Of a stretch of 64,000 nucleotides of DNA, positions 7,517 through 45,174 are shown one piece after another (positions within the stretch are counted from its first letter, which is position 1; the number at the start of each line of letters is the position of its first letter). The translations under genes were made by a program, and so were the position numbers. The stretch covers positions 124,001-188,000 of the forward strand of contig NZ_JAJTWU010000002.1 of assembly GCF_021353265.1 (NCBI RefSeq), written 5' to 3'. The notes under the pieces are model-generated. The model worked only from the letters and a program-made list of their open reading frames with translations. It searched no databases and had not been told where the DNA came from. Origin of the DNA: Pelomonas cellulosilytica (GTDB taxonomy: Bacteria; Pseudomonadota; Gammaproteobacteria; Burkholderiales; Burkholderiaceae_C).

Positions 7517-8290
7517 TCACGCATCGCCGCGCTGCCGCCACCACAGCAGGCTGGCGATGACGTACAGCGTCGCGCCACAACTGGTGCTCCAGGTGACGCT
7601 GCGCACGAGCAGGTGAGAGCGGTAGGCCGGCATCGCGGCGGGCGTGAGGGCCCAGGACGACAGCGCGCCGACGACCACCGCCACGCCGAAGCAGGCCCAC
7701 AGGAGGCGTCTGCGCTGCCGGTCCAGCGGTGGTGGCGGCGTCGGGTCCAGCCGGTGCCGCGCGTTGCGGTAGGCGAGCAGCAGGACGGCCGCGCCGAGCA
7801 CCGTGCTGAGGTGCTGGAGCACCTGGGCGACCAGCAGCGGCCGGTGGCCCGGCGCGGTGATCAGCGGGTCGTCCAGCCAGGGCAGCAGCTCATCGGTGAG
7901 TGGTCCTGTGTGTGTGAACGCGTCCCAGGCCAGGTGCGTCGCGGCACCGATCAGGATGGACAGTACGGTGACGGCCCAGGCCCGTCCGGCGGCCTGCGGC
8001 GGTGGCTGCAGCGCCTGACGCACAAGTGTGCGGTGTGGGTCGCGCAGCAGCACGGTCAGGGGCTTCGAGAAGCGCAGCAGCAGCGCCAGCAGCAGCAGGC
8101 AAACGGGCAGGCAGACGGTCAAGACGCCTTCGGGCGTGTGCAGGTACGCGCGCAGCGGGCCGTGCATGCCGATGTAGTGGCTCAGGTCGGGCGCCATCGC
8201 CCCGAGGATGAGGCCAGGCCAGGACAGCCAGCGCGGGCACAGGGGCCGCAGCGGCAGAACGGCTGCCGGGTGGGCAAAGGTCCAAGGCAT
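7517..8290 (-). CDS. DUF4184 family membrane protein
   Basis: 257 residues. It begins MPWTFAHPAAVLPL, the start signature I associate with DUF4184. About five hydrophobic segments follow. Conserved-looking His/Asp residues sit in APDLSHY (about residues 36-42) and in HLAWDAFTH, which suggests a membrane metal site like those of YdjM-type metal-dependent hydrolases, though this is unproven. The start at 8290 is chosen from the family N-terminus; the upstream frame is open but GC-rich noise. Confidence 0.78.
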   Translation of the reverse strand: MPWTFAHPAAVLPLRPLCPRWLSWPGLILGAMAPDLSHYIGMHGPLRAYLHTPEGVLTVCLPVCLLLLALLLRFSKPLTVLLRDPHRTLVRQALQPPPQAAGRAWAVTVLSILIGAATHLAWDAFTHTGPLTDELLPWLDDPLITAPGHRPLLVAQVLQHLSTVLGAAVLLLAYRNARHRLDPTPPPPLDRQRRRLLWACFGVAVVVGALSSWALTPAAMPAYRSHLLVRSVTWSTSCGATLYVIASLLWWRQRGDA

Positions 8291-37961: not shown

Positions 37962-38183
37962 ATGCGGTTTCCAGCAGCGCTGCGCTTTCTCCGCCGTGAC
38001 GCTGCCGCGCGCAGCGAACCCGATCCTGCCGATCTCGGCACGGCCTTCGGCCTGGACGCCTGCCTCGATGGCGGCGGCTTCAGCGAATATCGCCAGCAGC
38101 CGCCCAGCGACGTGCTTGAGTCGCAGTCCGTGCGCGGCGTGCAGGACTCGCCGCTCGGCTGGCTGTCGCGCCGGACGGCCTAG
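37962..38183 (+). CDS. Small hypothetical protein
   Basis: 73 residues, Arg-rich at the N-terminus (MRFPAALRFLRRDAAARSEPD) and with no recognised domain. AGAGG lies 6 bases before the ATG. Its TAG stop overlaps the TAG of the convergent pssA gene in a CTAG shared by both strands, a compact junction common in this window. Function unknown. Confidence 0.55.
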   Translation: MRFPAALRFLRRDAAARSEPDPADLGTAFGLDACLDGGGFSEYRQQPPSDVLESQSVRGVQDSPLGWLSRRTA

Positions 38184-38797
38184 ATCTTTGGAATCCTGAT
38201 CCGGCTCACCATCAGCGAGCCGAACACCGCAAACAGCAGCACCAGCGGGTGCAGCCGGAAGCCGCCGAGCCACCACACCCCGCCCCAGAGCTGCTCACCC
38301 AGCGCGCCTTGCGCTGCGGCCACCCACAGCAGCGCCACGAGCACCATCGATGTCGGGATGGGCGTGCCCTCGAAATACGCCACCTTGTCCGACCCGGCGC
38401 TGAGCTTCTCCGCCGTCACGTTGAAGCGCGCCAGCCGGCTCACGCCGCACGCGACGAAGAACACCAGCACGATGCGGTCGTACAGCCCCTGCATGCCGCA
38501 GCCGTAGGCGATGGCCGCCGGTGCGACGCCGAAGGAGATGATGTCGGCCAGCGAATCGAGCTCGCGGCCGAGCGCTGAGCTCTTCTGCCGCCAGCGTGCG
38601 ATGCGGCCGTCCAGTACGTCGAAGACCAGCGCCAGCGGGATCAGTGCGCATGCGTATTGCAGATGCCGCGCGTCGCCGCTTTGCAAGAAGCTCATAACGG
38701 CGAACAGCGCGCCCATGCCGGCGCAGGCATTGCCGAGCGTGAACCAGTCGGCGAGGTGGAACTCGCGGATCATCGAGAACGGCTTGGGGCGGTTCAT
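38180..38797 (-). CDS. pssA: CDP-diacylglycerol--serine O-phosphatidyltransferase
   Basis: 205 residues with several membrane helices. The CDP-alcohol phosphatidyltransferase motif D-x2-DG-x2-AR-x8-G-x3-D-x3-D is complete: Asp60, Asp63-Gly64, Ala67-Arg68, Gly77, Asp81 and Asp85. The enzyme makes phosphatidylserine, precursor of phosphatidylethanolamine. The exact alcohol acceptor is inferred from overall similarity to PssA. Its start overlaps the stop of the nucleotidyltransferase gene (TGATG), so it is the last gene of the HPr-kinase-related operon, an unusual place for a phospholipid gene. Confidence 0.88.
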   Translation of the reverse strand: MNRPKPFSMIREFHLADWFTLGNACAGMGALFAVMSFLQSGDARHLQYACALIPLALVFDVLDGRIARWRQKSSALGRELDSLADIISFGVAPAAIAYGCGMQGLYDRIVLVFFVACGVSRLARFNVTAEKLSAGSDKVAYFEGTPIPTSMVLVALLWVAAAQGALGEQLWGGVWWLGGFRLHPLVLLFAVFGSLMVSRIRIPKI

Positions 38798-39870
38798 CAG
38801 CGGTTGTCGTCAAGGGCCTGGCTCTGCGGCGGCCGCAGCGCCTTGTGCAGCAGATGGTAGACCAGCAGCGGCAGCGGCATGCGCAGCCAATGCGAGCGGA
38901 TGTAGAGCGTGCGGCAGCACCAGGCGGTCCAGGCGTCCGACGCGCTCGCATGCATGGGACGCAGCGCGCGGGCGTACATGAAGTCGAGCACCGGCTCGGG
39001 TCTGCCGGCGCCACTGCCGGCGAGCACGTCGGTCGGGACCGGCGTCTGCAGTTCCTGATGGCAGTAGCGCAGCGCCAGCCGCAGCGGGCGCTGCAGGCCG
39101 TGCTGTTCGGCGCGCGCCAGCAGGCGGCGCCAGAAGTCGGCCTCCGCACCCCAGTGCCGCATCAGCAGGTCCAGGTCGCTCAAGTCGCGCAGCAGGTTGT
39201 CCGGTTCGCCCTCATGGAACAGATGGGCGGCGCTGTGCAGCACCATGTCCACCGGTGCCAGCACCCAGACGCCGCGGTGGCCGGGCACCTCGACGGCGTC
39301 GCGCAGCAGCGCGGCGGCATCGACATGGCTGCGGCTGGTGGGTGGAAGGATGGTGTGATGCACATCGAGTGCCGTGCCGCGGAACAGGTGCATCAGCGGC
39401 GGCAATTCATGCATCCAGCGGCGGTAGTAGCGCTGGTCGTAGGCGTCGAGCTTGTCGCCGCTCCAGCCCTGCACGGCGAGCAGCGATTCGGCCTCGTCGA
39501 GCACCGCCCGTGGCAGCAGGATGTCCACGTCGGAGAAGACGCGGCCCCGGGCCGCCGGCAGCCCGGCCATCACGTAGGCCGCGCCCTTGAGCAGCACCAG
39601 CGGCACACCCAGCGGCGCCAGCACCTGCTGCAATGCCCTAACCTCGTAATGCACCGACAGGTGCTGGCGTGCGGCCATCATCGCGGCGGACTGCAGGTGG
39701 CGCGCGGGCCGTTCCGGCACTTCCACTCCGGTGGCGTCCAGCTGAAGGTGCAGGCGCCCCAGCAGGTTGGCGTGACGCGCCTGGCGCACGAGCACGTCCC
39801 ACTGCAGCAGATCCAGGCCGCGGGCCGCACCCGCGTCCCGCAGCACGCGGGTCAGCAGCGCAGGGCTCAT
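38797..39870 (-). CDS. Nucleotidyltransferase family protein (NTP_transf_5-like)
   Basis: 357 residues. The nucleotidyltransferase core is at about residues 92-120: LVLLKGAAYV then SDVDILLP at 113-120, with the two Asp (Asp114, Asp116) expected to bind metal. A long helical region follows with several His residues (ALDVHHT; HSAAHLFHEG). This family is often found beside HPr-kinase-related and PqqD-like genes, in peptide or exopolysaccharide contexts. The substrate is unknown. Start and stop both overlap neighbours, so it is tightly coupled with the kinase gene and pssA. Confidence 0.86.
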   Translation of the reverse strand: MSPALLTRVLRDAGAARGLDLLQWDVLVRQARHANLLGRLHLQLDATGVEVPERPARHLQSAAMMAARQHLSVHYEVRALQQVLAPLGVPLVLLKGAAYVMAGLPAARGRVFSDVDILLPRAVLDEAESLLAVQGWSGDKLDAYDQRYYRRWMHELPPLMHLFRGTALDVHHTILPPTSRSHVDAAALLRDAVEVPGHRGVWVLAPVDMVLHSAAHLFHEGEPDNLLRDLSDLDLLMRHWGAEADFWRRLLARAEQHGLQRPLRLALRYCHQELQTPVPTDVLAGSGAGRPEPVLDFMYARALRPMHASASDAWTAWCCRTLYIRSHWLRMPLPLLVYHLLHKALRPPQSQALDDNR

Positions 39871-40781
39871 GCCGGCGATCGGGCCAGGTCGTCGAAGACT
39901 TGCATGGCCTCGTCCAGGTTGCCGTAGCGGAAGCTGAAGTGGCCGCAGCGCGCGGTCAGCTCGCCCACGGTCTCGAAGCCCTGGCGGCCGAGGATGGCAT
40001 AGTTCATCGCGTTGTCGGCGATCTGCAGGAAGGCTTGGCCGCGGGGCATGGGCGTGAGTGTCGCCGCTGCACCCGCCTCGTACTTCGGCAGCACCATCGA
40101 GCACGGTTGCGCCGGCTGGCCGCCGGCCTGGACGCTGGCCACCGGCGGTGCCATCAGCGCGACCGTGCCCTTGCTGGTGTCATGGACCGGGCGGGTCAGG
40201 AAGGCGTCCGGCGCGAAGCCGCGGATCACGTCGATGGACGCGTTCTTCAGGTTGACCGGCCGGGCCAGACCCCAGACGCGCGCCGCATCGAAGTCCACCA
40301 GCGTCAGCTCGTCGCTGAGCAGCCGCCAGCCACGGTTGACGAGGGCGGCACACAGCGTGCTTTTGCCGGAGCCCGGCGGCGCCGGCAGGATGACGGCCCG
40401 TCCGTCGCGGGCGACGCAGGCCGCGTGCAGCACCAGCAGGTGGTGGCTGTAGGCTGTGACGCACCAGTTGAGCCCCCACTCCAGCATCGGCAGCGCCTGC
40501 GCGCGCGGCAGCGGCGTGAAGGGCTTGACGTCATCGGCCAGGAATTGCACCTGCGGCCGCAGCCAGCGCCGCAGCCCCGGCGTGGCGGCGACTTCGACGT
40601 GGAAGTCGATCATGTCGCCGTCGGGCGCGAGTTCATGTTCGCCGTACAGCGTGGCCAGCTCCGTGGCGATCTCATCCACGTCCGTGCGCAGCGCGCAGTT
40701 GAACGGGCCGGTCACGAGGCGCAGGCCCTGCCGCAGCGCGGCGCGGAAGCCGGCCGGTCCGAGATCCTTGACGCGCCTCAC
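39867..40781 (-). CDS. HPr-kinase-related P-loop kinase (HprK-rel-A type)
   Basis: 304 residues. A P-loop is at residues 134-141 (APPGSGKS), followed by LCAALVNRG and a Walker-B-like LLSDELTLVD, the arrangement of the HPr kinase/phosphorylase fold. A His (119) precedes the loop in LLVLHAACVARDG. It lacks the N-terminal domain of true HprK, which fits the HPr-rel-A system kinase. The start is a GTG overlapping the PqqD-like stop (GTGA). The phosphoacceptor is unknown; no HPr-like gene is present in the window. Confidence 0.88.
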   Translation of the reverse strand: MRRVKDLGPAGFRAALRQGLRLVTGPFNCALRTDVDEIATELATLYGEHELAPDGDMIDFHVEVAATPGLRRWLRPQVQFLADDVKPFTPLPRAQALPMLEWGLNWCVTAYSHHLLVLHAACVARDGRAVILPAPPGSGKSTLCAALVNRGWRLLSDELTLVDFDAARVWGLARPVNLKNASIDVIRGFAPDAFLTRPVHDTSKGTVALMAPPVASVQAGGQPAQPCSMVLPKYEAGAAATLTPMPRGQAFLQIADNAMNYAILGRQGFETVGELTARCGHFSFRYGNLDEAMQVFDDLARSPA

Positions 40782-41110
40782 GTCAGGACGGCGGCGCTGT
40801 CGCCGGCCCGTGCCACCAGGCCGGCCTGCTGCAACTCGTCCAATGTGTGCCCGAGCAGCTCATCGGCCAGTGATGCATCGGCCTCGCCGTCGTCGGCTGC
40901 CAGCACATGGTCCAGCAGGTCAGCCCGGGTCAGCTCATGACCAGGATGCCGGGACCAGATTTCCAGCAGGAAGCTGGCGAGGTGGGACAGCAGCAACGTC
41001 TCGCCAGTGTCGGGGTCGAAGCAGACGTGCCCATCCTCGAACTCGCGAGACAACAACCGGCCGGCGGCCGGCGCGGCACGCCAGCGCTGAGCGTTGCCGC
41101 CCAGGGGCAT
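40778..41110 (-). CDS. PqqD-like small protein (HPr-rel-A system peptide chaperone type)
   Basis: 110 residues. The PqqD-type fold is suggested by FEDGHVCFDPDTGETLLLSHLASFLLEIW, a beta-hairpin followed by a helix, then a C-terminal helix DELLGHTLDELQQAGLV. PqqD-like proteins bind the leader of a precursor peptide and present it to a modifying enzyme. It lies 5 bases after the exported-protein gene and overlaps the kinase gene, which suggests that it presents that protein or another small peptide to the kinase or nucleotidyltransferase. Confidence 0.82.
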   Translation of the reverse strand: MPLGGNAQRWRAAPAAGRLLSREFEDGHVCFDPDTGETLLLSHLASFLLEIWSRHPGHELTRADLLDHVLAADDGEADASLADELLGHTLDELQQAGLVARAGDSAAVLT

Positions 41111-41115
41111 GGGTG

Positions 41116-41739
41116 TCAGACGGGGACCTGTTGGGTCAGGAACTTCAGGTAGCCGATGACCTGATCCCGTCCCCAGGGCTTGGTCTGAGCCGGCGGCGTG
41201 TAGCCACCGCCGAGAACGCCCAGGTTCCACATGTCGACAAAGCGCTGCTTGGTCGGCCAGGTGGTGTCGTTGCCAACGGCGACAGCCTGCAGGTAGCAGG
41301 CCATCAGCAGGCCCTGGTCGCTGGTGTCAGCCTTGGCGAGCCAGCTGCTGACCGTGGTGTCGTTGCTGTAAGGGCCAAGGTTCAGGCCGAGCGAGCTGAC
41401 CAGTGTGTCGCGGGTGATCGAGAACACCGTCTTGCCGTAGAAGTACCGGAAGGGCGACGTCGAGTTCTGGCAGTTCGTGGTGCGCCAGGCCGATGCCTTC
41501 AGACCAGGGTCGGCACAATTCTTCGGGCCGCGGCTCAGATTGCCGGAGACGGTGAAGCCGGAAGGCAGCTTGCAGGAGCAAGCCATCACGGACGCGGGCT
41601 TGAGCGCCACCAGTGCGGGCGCACCGATGGCGCCAGCACGCAGAAGGCTGCGGCGCGTCCTGGAAACACCAGGCGCGGCCACAGCCGCAGGCTGCGCTTC
41701 GGGCGTCTGCTGCGGGTCGCGGGGTTGGTGTTCGTTCAT
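41116..41739 (-). CDS. Exported protein with Tat signal, candidate modification target
   Basis: 207 residues. The N-terminus is a 25-residue hydrophilic leader, then SRTRRSLLRAG with twin arginines at 29-30, a hydrophobic stretch and a cleavage site near residue 53. The mature part starts ACSC (Cys54, Cys56) and has more cysteines at 75, 90 and near 148, with Ser/Thr/Asn-rich stretches. I recognise no enzyme domain. It is the first gene of the PqqD-like/HprK-rel/nucleotidyltransferase run and has the leader-plus-core look of a modified substrate. A GAGG is 9 bases before the ATG at 41739. Confidence 0.8.
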   Translation of the reverse strand: MNEHQPRDPQQTPEAQPAAVAAPGVSRTRRSLLRAGAIGAPALVALKPASVMACSCKLPSGFTVSGNLSRGPKNCADPGLKASAWRTTNCQNSTSPFRYFYGKTVFSITRDTLVSSLGLNLGPYSNDTTVSSWLAKADTSDQGLLMACYLQAVAVGNDTTWPTKQRFVDMWNLGVLGGGYTPPAQTKPWGRDQVIGYLKFLTQQVPV

Positions 41740-42080
41740 GACAGTAGGCCTCGTGGATCCGTTTTTGCTTGTTCCGGCAAGGTTGGCGATGCTATCGGAC
41801 GCTTCGCCACTTGGTGCGGAAGTGTTCCACACAATGCCGGCACAGGGGGTTGGCTCGCGCCCCCCTGATCGGGTGGACTTCGGTGGCTGGGCAGAGGTTG
41901 TTTGCCGCGAGGGTGTCACACGCCTTCAATGCAGCCGTGGCCGGGCGCGTTCGGCGGGTGTTTTGCGGCTGGTCCGTCCATGCTGCGGCTCATGGCGGGG
42001 ATGCGTCAGCCTGTCGCAGCGTGCTGGCGGGGCTCCACGGGCCTGTCGACACTGCGGCCCAAGACGCCCAGGAGAACACT
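41740..42080. other. Long divergent intergenic region
   Basis: 341 bases with no convincing gene. It separates the exported-protein operon (minus) from the DUF2807 gene (plus). It contains a hairpin: CAGGGGG at 41843-41849 pairs with CCCCCTG at 41861-41867. Reading frames crossing it lack ribosome-binding sites and recognisable protein. It is probably the control region for both sides; the last 20 bases hold the ribosome-binding site (GGAG) of the DUF2807 gene. Confidence 0.5.
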
Positions 42081-42878
42081 ATGTCCCGACTCGCCCTGAT
42101 GATCTTCACCACCGCGCTGGCTGCGGGAGCCGCCCAGGCCGGCGACGACGACTGGCGCCTGCGCATCCGCAAGGAAGCCGACGGCTGGTCGGCCCATCTC
42201 AGCGTGCCCGTCGAGTACGGCAGCGGCAAGAACCGTGTCAGGGGCTCGGGTGCCAAGGTGGAGAAGGTTCGCACGCTCGCCGCGTTCACGAAGCTGCGCC
42301 TGGACGGCCCGTTCGACGTCAAGCTGGCGCAGGCGGGCACCGACCAGGCCACCATCGTCGCGGACGACAACGTCGAACCGCTGGTCGAGACGGTGGTGGA
42401 GGGCGACACGCTCGTCGTGCGCCTGAAGCGCGATGCGGGCTTTACGACCCGGTTCACGCCCACGGTGCGCCTCGACGCCCGGGGCCTGCAGGCGGTGGCG
42501 CTCCACGGTTCGGGTGATCTGGCCATGGACCGCTTCAGGGCCGACAGCCTGGCGCTGAACGTTGTCGGCTCCGGCGACGTGCAGCTCGGCCTCGTCGAGC
42601 TGAAGGAGCTGAACGTGAGCATCAGCGGCTCCGGGGACGTCCGTCTGGCCGGCCGGGCCGACCAGCAGACCTGGAAAGTCAGCGGGTCGGGCGACGTCGA
42701 TGCCGGTTCGTTGACCGGGCGTTCGGCCCGCGTGGAGCTGAGCGGTTCGGGGGACGTGTCGCTTGGTGTCGTCGAGGAACTGGACGCGCGGCTGACGGGC
42801 TCGGGCGACCTCAGCTATGCCGGCCGGCCGCAGTTGCGCCAAAGCGTCAGCGGTTCCGGCGAAATCCACCGCCGCTGA
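42081..42878 (+). CDS. DUF2807 family exported protein (GIN-domain beta-helix)
   Basis: 265 residues with a signal peptide (about residues 1-20, ending AAQAG). Residues 70-265 form the DUF2807 repeat fold, with a GSGD (once GSGE) motif repeated seven times roughly every 15-22 residues, e.g. LHGSGDLAM, VVGSGDVQL and SISGSGDVRL. Such repeats stack into a right-handed beta-helix. The protein is probably periplasmic or on the cell surface. No partner gene is obvious; the function of the family is unknown. Confidence 0.88.
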   Translation: MSRLALMIFTTALAAGAAQAGDDDWRLRIRKEADGWSAHLSVPVEYGSGKNRVRGSGAKVEKVRTLAAFTKLRLDGPFDVKLAQAGTDQATIVADDNVEPLVETVVEGDTLVVRLKRDAGFTTRFTPTVRLDARGLQAVALHGSGDLAMDRFRADSLALNVVGSGDVQLGLVELKELNVSISGSGDVRLAGRADQQTWKVSGSGDVDAGSLTGRSARVELSGSGDVSLGVVEELDARLTGSGDLSYAGRPQLRQSVSGSGEIHRR

Positions 42879-42893
42879 GTTCCAATCGCGTGG

Positions 42894-43544
42894 GTGAACC
42901 CACGCGATCTCTGGTGGCAGGCGCTGGTCGACGGCCCCGACGGCCCGTTGCTGCTGGCCCTGTTCGGCGCCGATGGACGGCTGCGGCTGGCCAATGCGGC
43001 GTATCGCTCGGCCTGGGCCCTCGGGGCCGACGAGCTGCCGACGCGTGCCGAGATCGTCGAGGCCGCTGGCGCCGCGGGCGTCGGCCCCGTGGCATTGCCC
43101 GGGCGGCGGCAGCGCGCGCCACGGTCGGGCTATGAACAGTCCTGGCGGGACGGTCGGCGGTTGTGGTGGGTGGAGCAGCCGACCGCGGACGGCGGTTGTG
43201 CGTGCACCGGCGTCGACATCAGCGCGCTGCCGCGGCCGCGCCCGGCGACCGGGCAGGTGTTGTCGACCCAGGCCGGACTGGAGTTGCTGCAGTCCCTGCT
43301 GAGCGACGCGAGCGCCTGGCCGCTGTGCGTCGCGACGACGGCGCCGGGTGCCGACGGCCAGACGTTGCTGGCGCAGATCCGTGGCGAGGACGGTTGCGCG
43401 CGGCTGGCCGATGGCCGCCTGATGCTGCTGCTGCCCTCGACCGGGCCGGCCCAGGCCATCGCGCTGTGCGAACGGCTGGGTGGCCTGAGCCTTACGGAGG
43501 CGCAGTGGGGCGAGTCGGCTACCGAGCTGCTGCTGAGAGCCTGA
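42894..43544 (+). CDS. Hypothetical protein with PAS-like N-terminus
   Basis: 216 residues, starting at a GTG 15 bases after the DUF2807 stop. Residues 20-110 resemble a PAS domain (LFGADGRLRLANAAYRSAW, a common PAS opening). The C-terminal third (TQAGLELLQSLLSDASAWPLCV...DGRLMLLLPSTGP) recalls a worn-down GGDEF domain without the catalytic motif. It may be a decayed signalling protein. Its last 26 bases overlap the convergent phosphatase gene. No ribosome-binding site is clear. Confidence 0.55.
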   Translation: MNPRDLWWQALVDGPDGPLLLALFGADGRLRLANAAYRSAWALGADELPTRAEIVEAAGAAGVGPVALPGRRQRAPRSGYEQSWRDGRRLWWVEQPTADGGCACTGVDISALPRPRPATGQVLSTQAGLELLQSLLSDASAWPLCVATTAPGADGQTLLAQIRGEDGCARLADGRLMLLLPSTGPAQAIALCERLGGLSLTEAQWGESATELLLRA

Positions 43545-45174
43545 GGTCGCGGCCCTGCGCTTGCGCCGGGGCCGGCAGGCCAGCGATGGCGGCCAGCGTC
43601 GGCGCCAGGTCGGCAATCTCGACACGCGTGGGCACCTCGCCCGCACCGACGTAGGCAGGCCCCCAGAACAGCAGCGGCACGTGGGTGTCGTAGACATGCG
43701 GGCTGCCGTGCGTGCTGCCGCCCGGCCGGGAGCTGAAGATCCAGTTGGGCCGCAGCACGATCTGCAGTTGCGCGGCACGCGTCGGGTCGTAGGACTTGCG
43801 CATGGCCTCCAGATAGGACGTGGTCGTGTCGCTGCCCAGCAGTTGCTCGCGCGTGAAGACCGCGTCCACGCCCGGCAGCTTCAGCAGTTCGTCGCGCGCG
43901 ACGGCCTGAACGTCGGTGAAGGTCAGGCCGCGCTCGGCCGCGAGCGGCTCGTCGAGCAGCAGGCCGGACGCGGAGAAGTTCCGCGCCAGCTTATCGACGC
44001 CGAACCGGGCGCTAAGCGCCGCATTGACGGCGGCGAGCGATGGTCCGTTGTTGAAGCGGCCGGCGTCGCGCCCCTGTGTCAGCGCCCACTCGGGTGTGTC
44101 GGTGAAGCCGTGGTCGGCCGTCAGCGCCAGCACGTAATTGCCGGCGCCCACGGTCTGGTCGAGGAACTGGAAGAATGCCTGCAGGTGGCGGTCCAGGTGC
44201 AGCAGATGGTCGTGCGACAGCCGCGACTCGGGGCCGAAGGCGTGGTTCACGTAGTCGTGGCTGGACAGGCTGACCGACAGGATGTCCTGCACCCCGCGCT
44301 GGCCCAGCTGCTCGTTCGTGACCGCGGCGCGGGCGAAGGCCAGCGTCAGCTCGTCGCCGAACGGCGAGGCCAGCAGGTTGCCGTAGAAGCGTGGGCCGGG
44401 TGCGTCCATCTGGGCGCCGATGACGGCAGGCAGCCGGTTGCCGTTGCCGCTGGCGATTTGCCACGGCTGACCGTCGGGCACGTCGCGCGCGTAGGCCGAC
44501 TCGGCCAGCAGCGGCGCCCAAGCCTTCTGGAAGAACGCGTCGGCCGGTCGCGCGGCATTGAAGTCCTTCACCCAGGCCGGCAGCGCCGACATGTAGTAGG
44601 TGCTGGACGAGAACTGCCCCGTTTCGCCCATGTACATATACGCCGTACCGAGGTGGCCGGCGGGCAGGATGGCGCCGCGGTCCTTGCCCGAGATGCCGAT
44701 GACCTTGGAGCTCGGCGAACGCCCGCGCAGCACGTCGCCCAGCGTCTCGGCCTTCAGGTTGCGTGGGCTGGTGCCGGACAGCGGCGCCGTCGGGTTGTCC
44801 AGGTAGGTGTAGGCCGCATCGCCGGTGTTGTAGACCGGCCCGCCGGTGGCCGGGTCGCGCCATTCGTTGCTGATGATGCCAGTGCGCTGAGGGTAGGCGC
44901 CCGTCAGCATGACCGAATGCCCGGCCGCCGTCACGGTGTGGCCGTGGCCGTAATGCGCCTGGGAGAACCAGCGCCCGTGGTCCAGGAATCGGGCGAAGCC
45001 GTCCGGCACCAGCTGGCTGCGCGCGCCGGTGACCTGCCGCATCGGCAACCCGTCGATGACGACGAGCACCAGCAGCTTGGGCCCCGGGGGCGGCGCGGGC
45101 GGCGGCGTCGTGCAGGCGGACAGGGCGGCGGCCAGGGCTAGGCCCAGGAAATGGCGGCGATCAAGGAGTGGCAT
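43519..45174 (-). CDS. Alkaline-phosphatase-superfamily lipoprotein (PafA/NPP-like)
   Basis: 551 residues with a lipobox (LSAC, Cys21) and a proline-rich linker. Alkaline-phosphatase superfamily landmarks are VVIDGL (Asp41), the nucleophile-bearing GHTVTAAGHSVMLTG at residues 78-92, SHDYVNHAFG, and TADHGF for zinc binding. It resembles PafA-type phosphate-monoester phosphatases or nucleotide pyrophosphatases; the exact substrate is not predictable. Probably anchored in the outer or inner membrane facing the periplasm. The start is 61 bases from the divergent gene at 45236. Confidence 0.9.
   Translation of the reverse strand: MPLLDRRHFLGLALAAALSACTTPPPAPPPGPKLLVLVVIDGLPMRQVTGARSQLVPDGFARFLDHGRWFSQAHYGHGHTVTAAGHSVMLTGAYPQRTGIISNEWRDPATGGPVYNTGDAAYTYLDNPTAPLSGTSPRNLKAETLGDVLRGRSPSSKVIGISGKDRGAILPAGHLGTAYMYMGETGQFSSSTYYMSALPAWVKDFNAARPADAFFQKAWAPLLAESAYARDVPDGQPWQIASGNGNRLPAVIGAQMDAPGPRFYGNLLASPFGDELTLAFARAAVTNEQLGQRGVQDILSVSLSSHDYVNHAFGPESRLSHDHLLHLDRHLQAFFQFLDQTVGAGNYVLALTADHGFTDTPEWALTQGRDAGRFNNGPSLAAVNAALSARFGVDKLARNFSASGLLLDEPLAAERGLTFTDVQAVARDELLKLPGVDAVFTREQLLGSDTTTSYLEAMRKSYDPTRAAQLQIVLRPNWIFSSRPGGSTHGSPHVYDTHVPLLFWGPAYVGAGEVPTRVEIADLAPTLAAIAGLPAPAQAQGRDLRLSAAAR

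Follow-up and report, generated by a model that had tools for sequence, protein, structure and literature searches.

Our analysis of a 64,000-nucleotide stretch of Pelomonas cellulosilytica DNA (contig NZ_JAJTWU010000002.1, positions 124,001 to 188,000; hereafter the window) identifies a conserved cassette of four genes, encoding a protein predicted to be exported by the twin-arginine translocation (Tat) pathway, a PqqD-like protein, an HPr-kinase-related kinase and a nucleotidyltransferase-fold enzyme of family PF14907. We consider it probable that the four genes constitute a dedicated modification system whose exported product takes part in the exopolysaccharide/PEP-CTERM programme. An earlier note on this DNA had described five coupled minus-strand genes at positions 38180-41739, the last being pssA, and a re-reading of the sequence confirmed the run with all four of its junctions (Table 1). 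The stop codon of the exported-protein gene lies 5 nt before the ATG of the PqqD-like gene; the latter overlaps the kinase gene at GTGA (kinase GTG at 40781, PqqD-like stop ending at 40778), the kinase gene overlaps the nucleotidyltransferase gene at ATGA (nucleotidyltransferase ATG at 39870, kinase stop ending at 39867), and the nucleotidyltransferase gene meets pssA at TGATG (pssA ATG at 38797).

How widely is this arrangement conserved? Of 300 order genomes, 50, that of P. cellulosilytica included, encode a kinase scoring above the TIGR04352 cut-off, as do 49 of 200 genomes of the family. Kinase loci were fetched from the order-wide set (49 loci), from the family genomes and from 80 named loci (a species-level collection); the latter are the top 80 out of at least 249, with distant forms under-sampled, and their titles indicate beta- and gammaproteobacteria together with some alphaproteobacteria. 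Two of the 181 sources (L085 and L163 in our numbering of loci) were dropped for lack of a kinase match; 179 loci remained, 169 of them with distinct kinases. Among these 169, the PF14907 gene directly follows the kinase gene in 166, the three misses being contig ends with at most 718 bases left, and a PqqD-like gene directly precedes it in 164; of the five loci without a PqqD match, L155, L159 and L162 show, by eye, a short frame in that slot. A twin-arginine exported protein is encoded within the cassette in 167 of the 169. Candidates for this protein were located with a leader profile, which returned an upstream candidate in 152 of the 179 loci, low scorers being retained or swapped by eye; the same profile supplied 10 downstream candidates, and 21 were chosen by eye. 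The exported protein, PqqD-like protein, kinase and nucleotidyltransferase thus form a real cassette, and homologs of the kinase and PqqD-like genes, far from being rare neighbors of the exported protein, adjoin it almost everywhere. Of the five-gene order suggested earlier, the four cassette genes recur in nearly every kinase locus, whereas pssA does not; likewise, the first position assigned to the exported-protein gene is usual (157 of 167 loci), with the gene placed after the nucleotidyltransferase in the other 10.

Several loci depart from the simple arrangement. Three genomes (G436, G409 and G381) harbor a pair of cassettes, and a separate exported protein is encoded in each (L133 and L152, L143 and L153, and L136 and L157, respectively). 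In L125 (6107-6829) and L140 (6125-6853), a second exported protein with a similar leader is encoded near the first, and some cassettes therefore have two candidate substrates. A smaller arrangement occupies L163 (6085-8807). There, a frame of 76 residues (7579-7809), with a twin-arginine leader and a tail rich in Gly, Lys and Asp, directly precedes the gene of an HprK-like kinase that scores 71 bits against TIGR04352 (cut-off 200); a frame with a nucleotidyltransferase-like D-x-D motif lies on the opposite strand.

The exported protein is the least familiar component of the cassette. By eye, its leader, SRTRRSLLRAG, places a twin-arginine motif before a hydrophobic stretch, as in Tat substrates, and predicts export by that route. 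The window protein has no Pfam or NCBIfam match at E<=1, none of the 49 aligned family members has one at E<=0.001 (best 0.0013), and the same holds at E<=0.001 for four proteins of other substrate classes. In the 49-member alignment (mean column identity 19 percent), only R29, R30, S60 and S65 are invariant, and C56, C75 and L150 are nearly so. The two serines generalize to a motif, S-[GA]-x-x-S, which 95 of 106 non-redundant members carry among their first 45 mature residues, against a shuffle mean of 14.8; this comparison, like all our shuffle and Fisher tests, ignores relatedness. Structure prediction gave a confident helical region spanning roughly residues 131 to 200 and poor confidence around the two serines (block means 55 and 61); this is compatible with, if short of proof for, a flexible segment following the leader. 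The candidate substrate had been called a peptide; a whole protein of about 200 residues is the better description. It was also considered as a PEP-CTERM protein and rejected, ending as it does in GYLKFLTQQVPV, without a PEP motif, transmembrane stretch or basic tail.

Searching the 300 genomes with a profile of the 49 members returned matches in 47. Those covering most of the profile adjoin the kinase, and some kinase loci match by the leader and first serines alone. Three kinase-negative genomes were matched, each partially: G108 and G184 by the C-terminal part alone, within large proteins, and G255 by a leader-length stretch (E 8e-4). In two kinase-positive genomes (G088 and G067), the family domain is likewise found in large proteins as well. 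A TPGYWKNH-type domain is the matched part of these four large proteins, a match that includes neither leader nor serine motif; large frames with this domain, of 940 to 2878 residues, lie at L250:16-8652, L251:42-4796, L252:145-3342 and L253:120-2942.

Outside the main class, 17 proteins falling into small unrelated clusters retain the leader, and all except that of L220 carry a serine motif near the C-terminus (for example SCWTS, SAWNS or TAFTS). In substrates without the TPGYW domain (L065, L069, L072, L078-L081, L156 and L160), a conserved SCWTS-like motif (SCWTS, SCYTS, SCWSS, SCWAS or SCWNS) is close to the C-terminus. The protein of L068 has the leader and an atypical Gly/Ser-rich tail.

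The enzymes of the cassette are better known by name. Comparison with hidden Markov models bore out the proposed identity of the kinase, which matches the HPr-rel-A model TIGR04352 at 378.1 bits; HPr(Ser) kinase proper (TIGR00679) was rejected, at 15.1 bits against a cut-off of 240. The kinase profile matches solved HPr kinases weakly (1jb1, E 7.2e-4). H119, K140, D157 and E158 are invariant in an alignment of 28 kinases, at a spacing that we take to be that of the catalytic residues of HPr kinase. All 20 aligned PqqD-like proteins, the window's included, match TIGR04353 (PqqD_rel_X) at E<=0.1, compared with 5 of 20 for the lasso PqqD model. In the nucleotidyltransferase, K95-G96 and D114-x-D116 are invariant (alignment of 43), and comparisons of its predicted model (mean predicted local distance difference test score 94) returned nucleotidyltransferase folds. 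Weak similarity to SynChlorMet components was also seen, namely of the kinase to ScmC (31.1 bits, cut-off 125) and of the PqqD-like protein to ScmD (20.5 bits, cut-off 100).

In what cellular setting does the cassette operate? The link to genomes with PEP-CTERM sorting, mentioned in the earlier note, proved strong. Among the 299 order genomes other than that of P. cellulosilytica, an XrtA-like exosortase (our own label for TIGR02602 matches above 200 bits, set after the data were seen) is present in 46 of the 49 kinase-positive genomes and in 25 of the 250 kinase-negative ones; when any exosortase match is accepted, these figures become 47 of 49 and 63 of 250. In 19 genomes, picked by eye, in which kinase and exosortase share a contig, the two are less than 60 kb apart in 15 and more than 600 kb apart in three. 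Ten neighboring genes from five loci, chosen by eye for an exopolysaccharide or regulatory look rather than tallied from all neighbors, are all named as XrtA, PEP-CTERM or exosortase-A associated, and include PrsK, the PEP-CTERM-box response regulator, PrsT, EpsB_2, TIGR03027 and TIGR03007. The P. cellulosilytica genome encodes PrsR (728 bits) and two exosortases on contigs other than that of the cassette. Compared with XrtA/PEP-CTERM sorting and its PrsK/PrsR/sigma-54 regulon, the cassette nearly always shares the same genomes of the order and often lies near the same genes, but a PEP-CTERM signal is absent from the window's exported protein and the cassette resembles a modification unit rather than a sortase.

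The association extends to the region upstream of the exported-protein gene. Of 154 distinct loci, 81 have a sigma-54 site there (at least 9 of 11 positions), against a mean of 9.8 after shuffling, and the words TGTCG and TTTACA are prominent upstream of these sites, giving a 17-base element, TGTCGN6TTTACA. The consensus of this first motif was set after the data were seen; that of sigma-54 is the textbook one, fixed beforehand. The pair of PrsR box and sigma-54 site, with a spacer of 25-110, is present in 92 of the 154 loci, L165 (a Zoogloea locus) among them, compared with a mean of 0.2 in shuffles and 1 for the reverse complement. PEP-CTERM genes have been described as preceded by a 17-base motif ending in TTTACA and then a sigma-54 site, at a mean spacer of 62.8 (PMC1569441), and RpoN dependence has been shown for an Aquincola PEP-CTERM gene (PMC9850573). 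The cassette loci share this architecture at a mean spacer of 82.7. As a control, all 30 exact boxes in four genomes were inspected: about 17, judged by eye, precede a gene with a PEP-CTERM or VPVPAA-type tail, whereas a stricter script pattern assigned 9 to PEP-CTERM genes; one box belongs to a cassette, and the remainder precede neither. Since the control spacers average 71, those of the cassette are somewhat longer. These data support the notion that, in relatives, the exosortase link includes regulation shared with PEP-CTERM genes. The clade of the window has no PrsR box; on the minus strand, window positions 41740-41900 contain other short stretches, CCACCC..GGGG and TGTRTGAAACACT, in common with L119, L124, L130, L138, L149 and L151 (the window has one mismatch), and the upstream region of this clade may be under a different control.

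In conjunction with published work on lasso peptides, we propose the following model for the cassette. The PqqD-like protein would bind the twin-arginine leader and present the segment that directly follows. There, the HPr-kinase-fold enzyme would phosphorylate one of the invariant serines, Ser65 being the first choice and Ser60 the second, and the PF14907 enzyme would then use the serine phosphate as acceptor for, most likely, a hexose or a nucleotide. In this modified form, the protein would leave by Tat and act outside the inner membrane in the exopolysaccharide/PEP-CTERM programme. From the sequences, we infer that the exported protein is phospho- or nucleotidyl-modified. In lasso peptide biosynthesis, as two reviews describe (PMC9266682, PMC8498205), an HPr-kinase homolog phosphorylates a serine of the precursor; for pseudomycoidin, PsmK phosphorylates Ser, and PsmN, annotated as a nucleotidyltransferase, adds one or two hexoses there. 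The lasso kinases need a His-Lys-Asp-Asp set (PMC9266682), and rumen lasso clusters are reported to be accompanied by HPr kinase, PqqD and nucleotidyltransferase genes (PMC7533575).

How does the cassette differ from these and other known systems? As is proposed for it, the paeninodin (PadeK) and pseudomycoidin (PsmK, PsmN) pathways pair an HPr-kinase homolog and an annotated nucleotidyltransferase on a serine of a leader-bearing product, and lasso clusters likewise employ PqqD-type proteins. Unlike the lasso peptides, the substrate in the window comprises some 200 residues behind a twin-arginine leader, with its candidate serines after the leader and not at the chain end; neither a lasso cyclase nor a leader protease is among the five genes of the cassette region, the rest of the window not having been scanned for them. 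Also close is the HPr-rel-A system (TIGR04352, TIGR04353). The window kinase lies far above its cut-off, with the PqqD-like and PF14907 genes adjacent (adjacency as a defining trait is our own reading of the model names), whereas the PqqD-like protein scores below cut-off and the exported partner is outside all Pfam and NCBIfam models. In the open-licence literature, we found no paper on the function of HPr-rel-A, alone or with PEP-CTERM.

Several observations weigh against the model. The PrsR-box/sigma-54 element was not found upstream of the window's own copy (best 7 of 11 positions for each half), and among the loci from the window's family, 12 of 48 have it, compared with 80 of 106 others. 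The PqqD-like protein matches TIGR04353 at E 1.1e-6, but its score of 29.5 bits misses the curated cut-off of 35, and because of this we refer to the protein as PqqD-like rather than as a TIGR04353 equivalog. In the window copy, one extra residue separates the two serines relative to S-[GA]-x-x-S, and the invariant S60 and S65 could be structural. In the other classes, the serine motifs near the C-terminus are detected only weakly by the main-class profile, L144 has no recognized substrate despite ample flanking sequence, and the kinship of PsmN with the PF14907 enzyme is presumed from its annotation.

Alternative readings also have to be considered. The kinase may phosphorylate the exported protein as proposed, with the PF14907 enzyme acting as a true nucleotidyltransferase on the protein or its phosphate and sugar uninvolved. 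We regard this as possible though somewhat doubtful, since the sole experimental precedent that we found for the enzyme pair reports hexoses and function cannot be read from a shared fold. Alternatively, the cassette could be regulatory, a reversible switch over folding, release or export timing that leaves the mature protein unmodified. HPr kinase is itself a regulatory enzyme, and the H, K, D and E residues of the cassette kinase presumably keep its catalytic spacing; yet family calls with Pfam and NCBIfam reveal no HPr-like protein among the five genes, the partner retained in 167 of 169 loci is the exported protein, and PrsR/sigma-54 already supplies control in relatives, so that we judge such a switch unlikely. 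It is also conceivable that the gene order reflects co-inheritance alone and that the exported protein, an extracellular domain protein, is independent of the other genes, as the TPGYWKNH-type domain of four large proteins (about 940 to 2900 residues), matched without leader or serine motif, might suggest. This is very improbable, given that substrate classes with unrelated mature parts and a similar leader fill the same slot, and that ten loci relocated the exported gene yet retained it in the cassette.

Could pssA be part of the system? All five genes might cooperate to join the modified serine to a phospholipid head group, anchoring the protein to the membrane lipid; lipid anchoring has been proposed for an archaeosortase acting with an archaetidylserine synthase. 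The pssA gene overlaps the nucleotidyltransferase gene in the window, lies near the kinase in 21 of the 169 distinct loci (in 4 of these upstream on the opposite strand), and has close relatives (above 240 bits) in 33 of 49 kinase-positive compared with 42 of 151 kinase-negative family genomes, an association uncorrected for relatedness. These 21 loci are, however, those of the window, its family and named Rubrivivax, Paucibacter and Roseateles contigs; 148 of the 169 have no such pssA in the fetched stretch, and in none of the 49 order-wide loci does a pssA relative lie within about 9 kb of the kinase. Moreover, 42 kinase-negative genomes carry the gene; of the 33 kinase-positive family genomes with it, 17 have it close to the kinase and 16 at another place; and P. 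cellulosilytica encodes a second pssA above the TIGR00473 cut-off. Contrary to the earlier note, pssA is a local neighbor outside the conserved cassette, and we consider lipid anchoring extremely improbable.

Within the proposed modification system, one may further speculate that a phosphoglycosylated exported protein serves as the attachment point or primer of an XrtA-type exopolysaccharide, although we think this distinctly unlikely. The serine phosphate and first sugar would be set in the cytoplasm, the folded protein would leave by Tat, and polysaccharide from the co-regulated locus would then be joined to it. If true, this would amount to a bacterial protein-to-polysaccharide linkage through phosphoserine.

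What is the relevance of the cassette? We do not describe a new kind of enzyme, as the enzymes are already named in NCBIfam; what is added here is a substrate family, its invariant serines and the link to a regulon. The HPr-rel-A enzymes gain a missing partner, an exported family outside the models searched, with two serines to mutate, and a setting, namely the PrsR/sigma-54 element in relatives and XrtA-type exopolysaccharide genes. The modification system thereby becomes directly testable, and would carry tailoring by a kinase and a nucleotidyltransferase beyond small lasso peptides, to a protein exported by Tat. Soil and water bacteria have a sticky coat of sugar, formed by exopolysaccharide, and the secreted protein of the cassette looks to be linked to that coat.

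Table 1. Features of the cassette region in the window
Feature	Position	Strand	Evidence
Exported protein, 207 residues, twin-arginine leader R29 R30, predicted cassette substrate	41116..41739	-	Alignment, loci survey
Arg29-Arg30 codons, leader twin arginines	41650..41655	-	Invariant 49/49
Ser60 codon, invariant serine	41560..41562	-	49/49; 100/104 in a second alignment
Ser65 codon, invariant serine, putative first-choice phosphoacceptor	41545..41547	-	49/49; 103/104 in a second alignment
PqqD-like protein, 110 residues, presumed leader-binding chaperone	40778..41110	-	TIGR04353 29.5 bits, cut-off 35
HprK-related kinase A, 304 residues, GTG start	39867..40781	-	TIGR04352 378.1 bits, cut-off 200
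PF14907 nucleotidyltransferase-fold enzyme, 357 residues	38797..39870	-	184.5 bits, cut-off 31.2
pssA-type CDP-alcohol phosphatidyltransferase, 205 residues, co-oriented neighbor	38180..38797	-	TIGR00473 113.2 bits, cut-off 107

Two further features of the window neighbor the cassette. A plus-strand frame with GSGD repeats (41769-42878) diverges from it, with only a sub-threshold match to LiaG (18.5 bits, cut-off 285), and upstream on the same strand as the cassette, at 43522-45174, lies a gene for an alkaline phosphatase resembling PafA (413.8 bits against a cut-off of 650).

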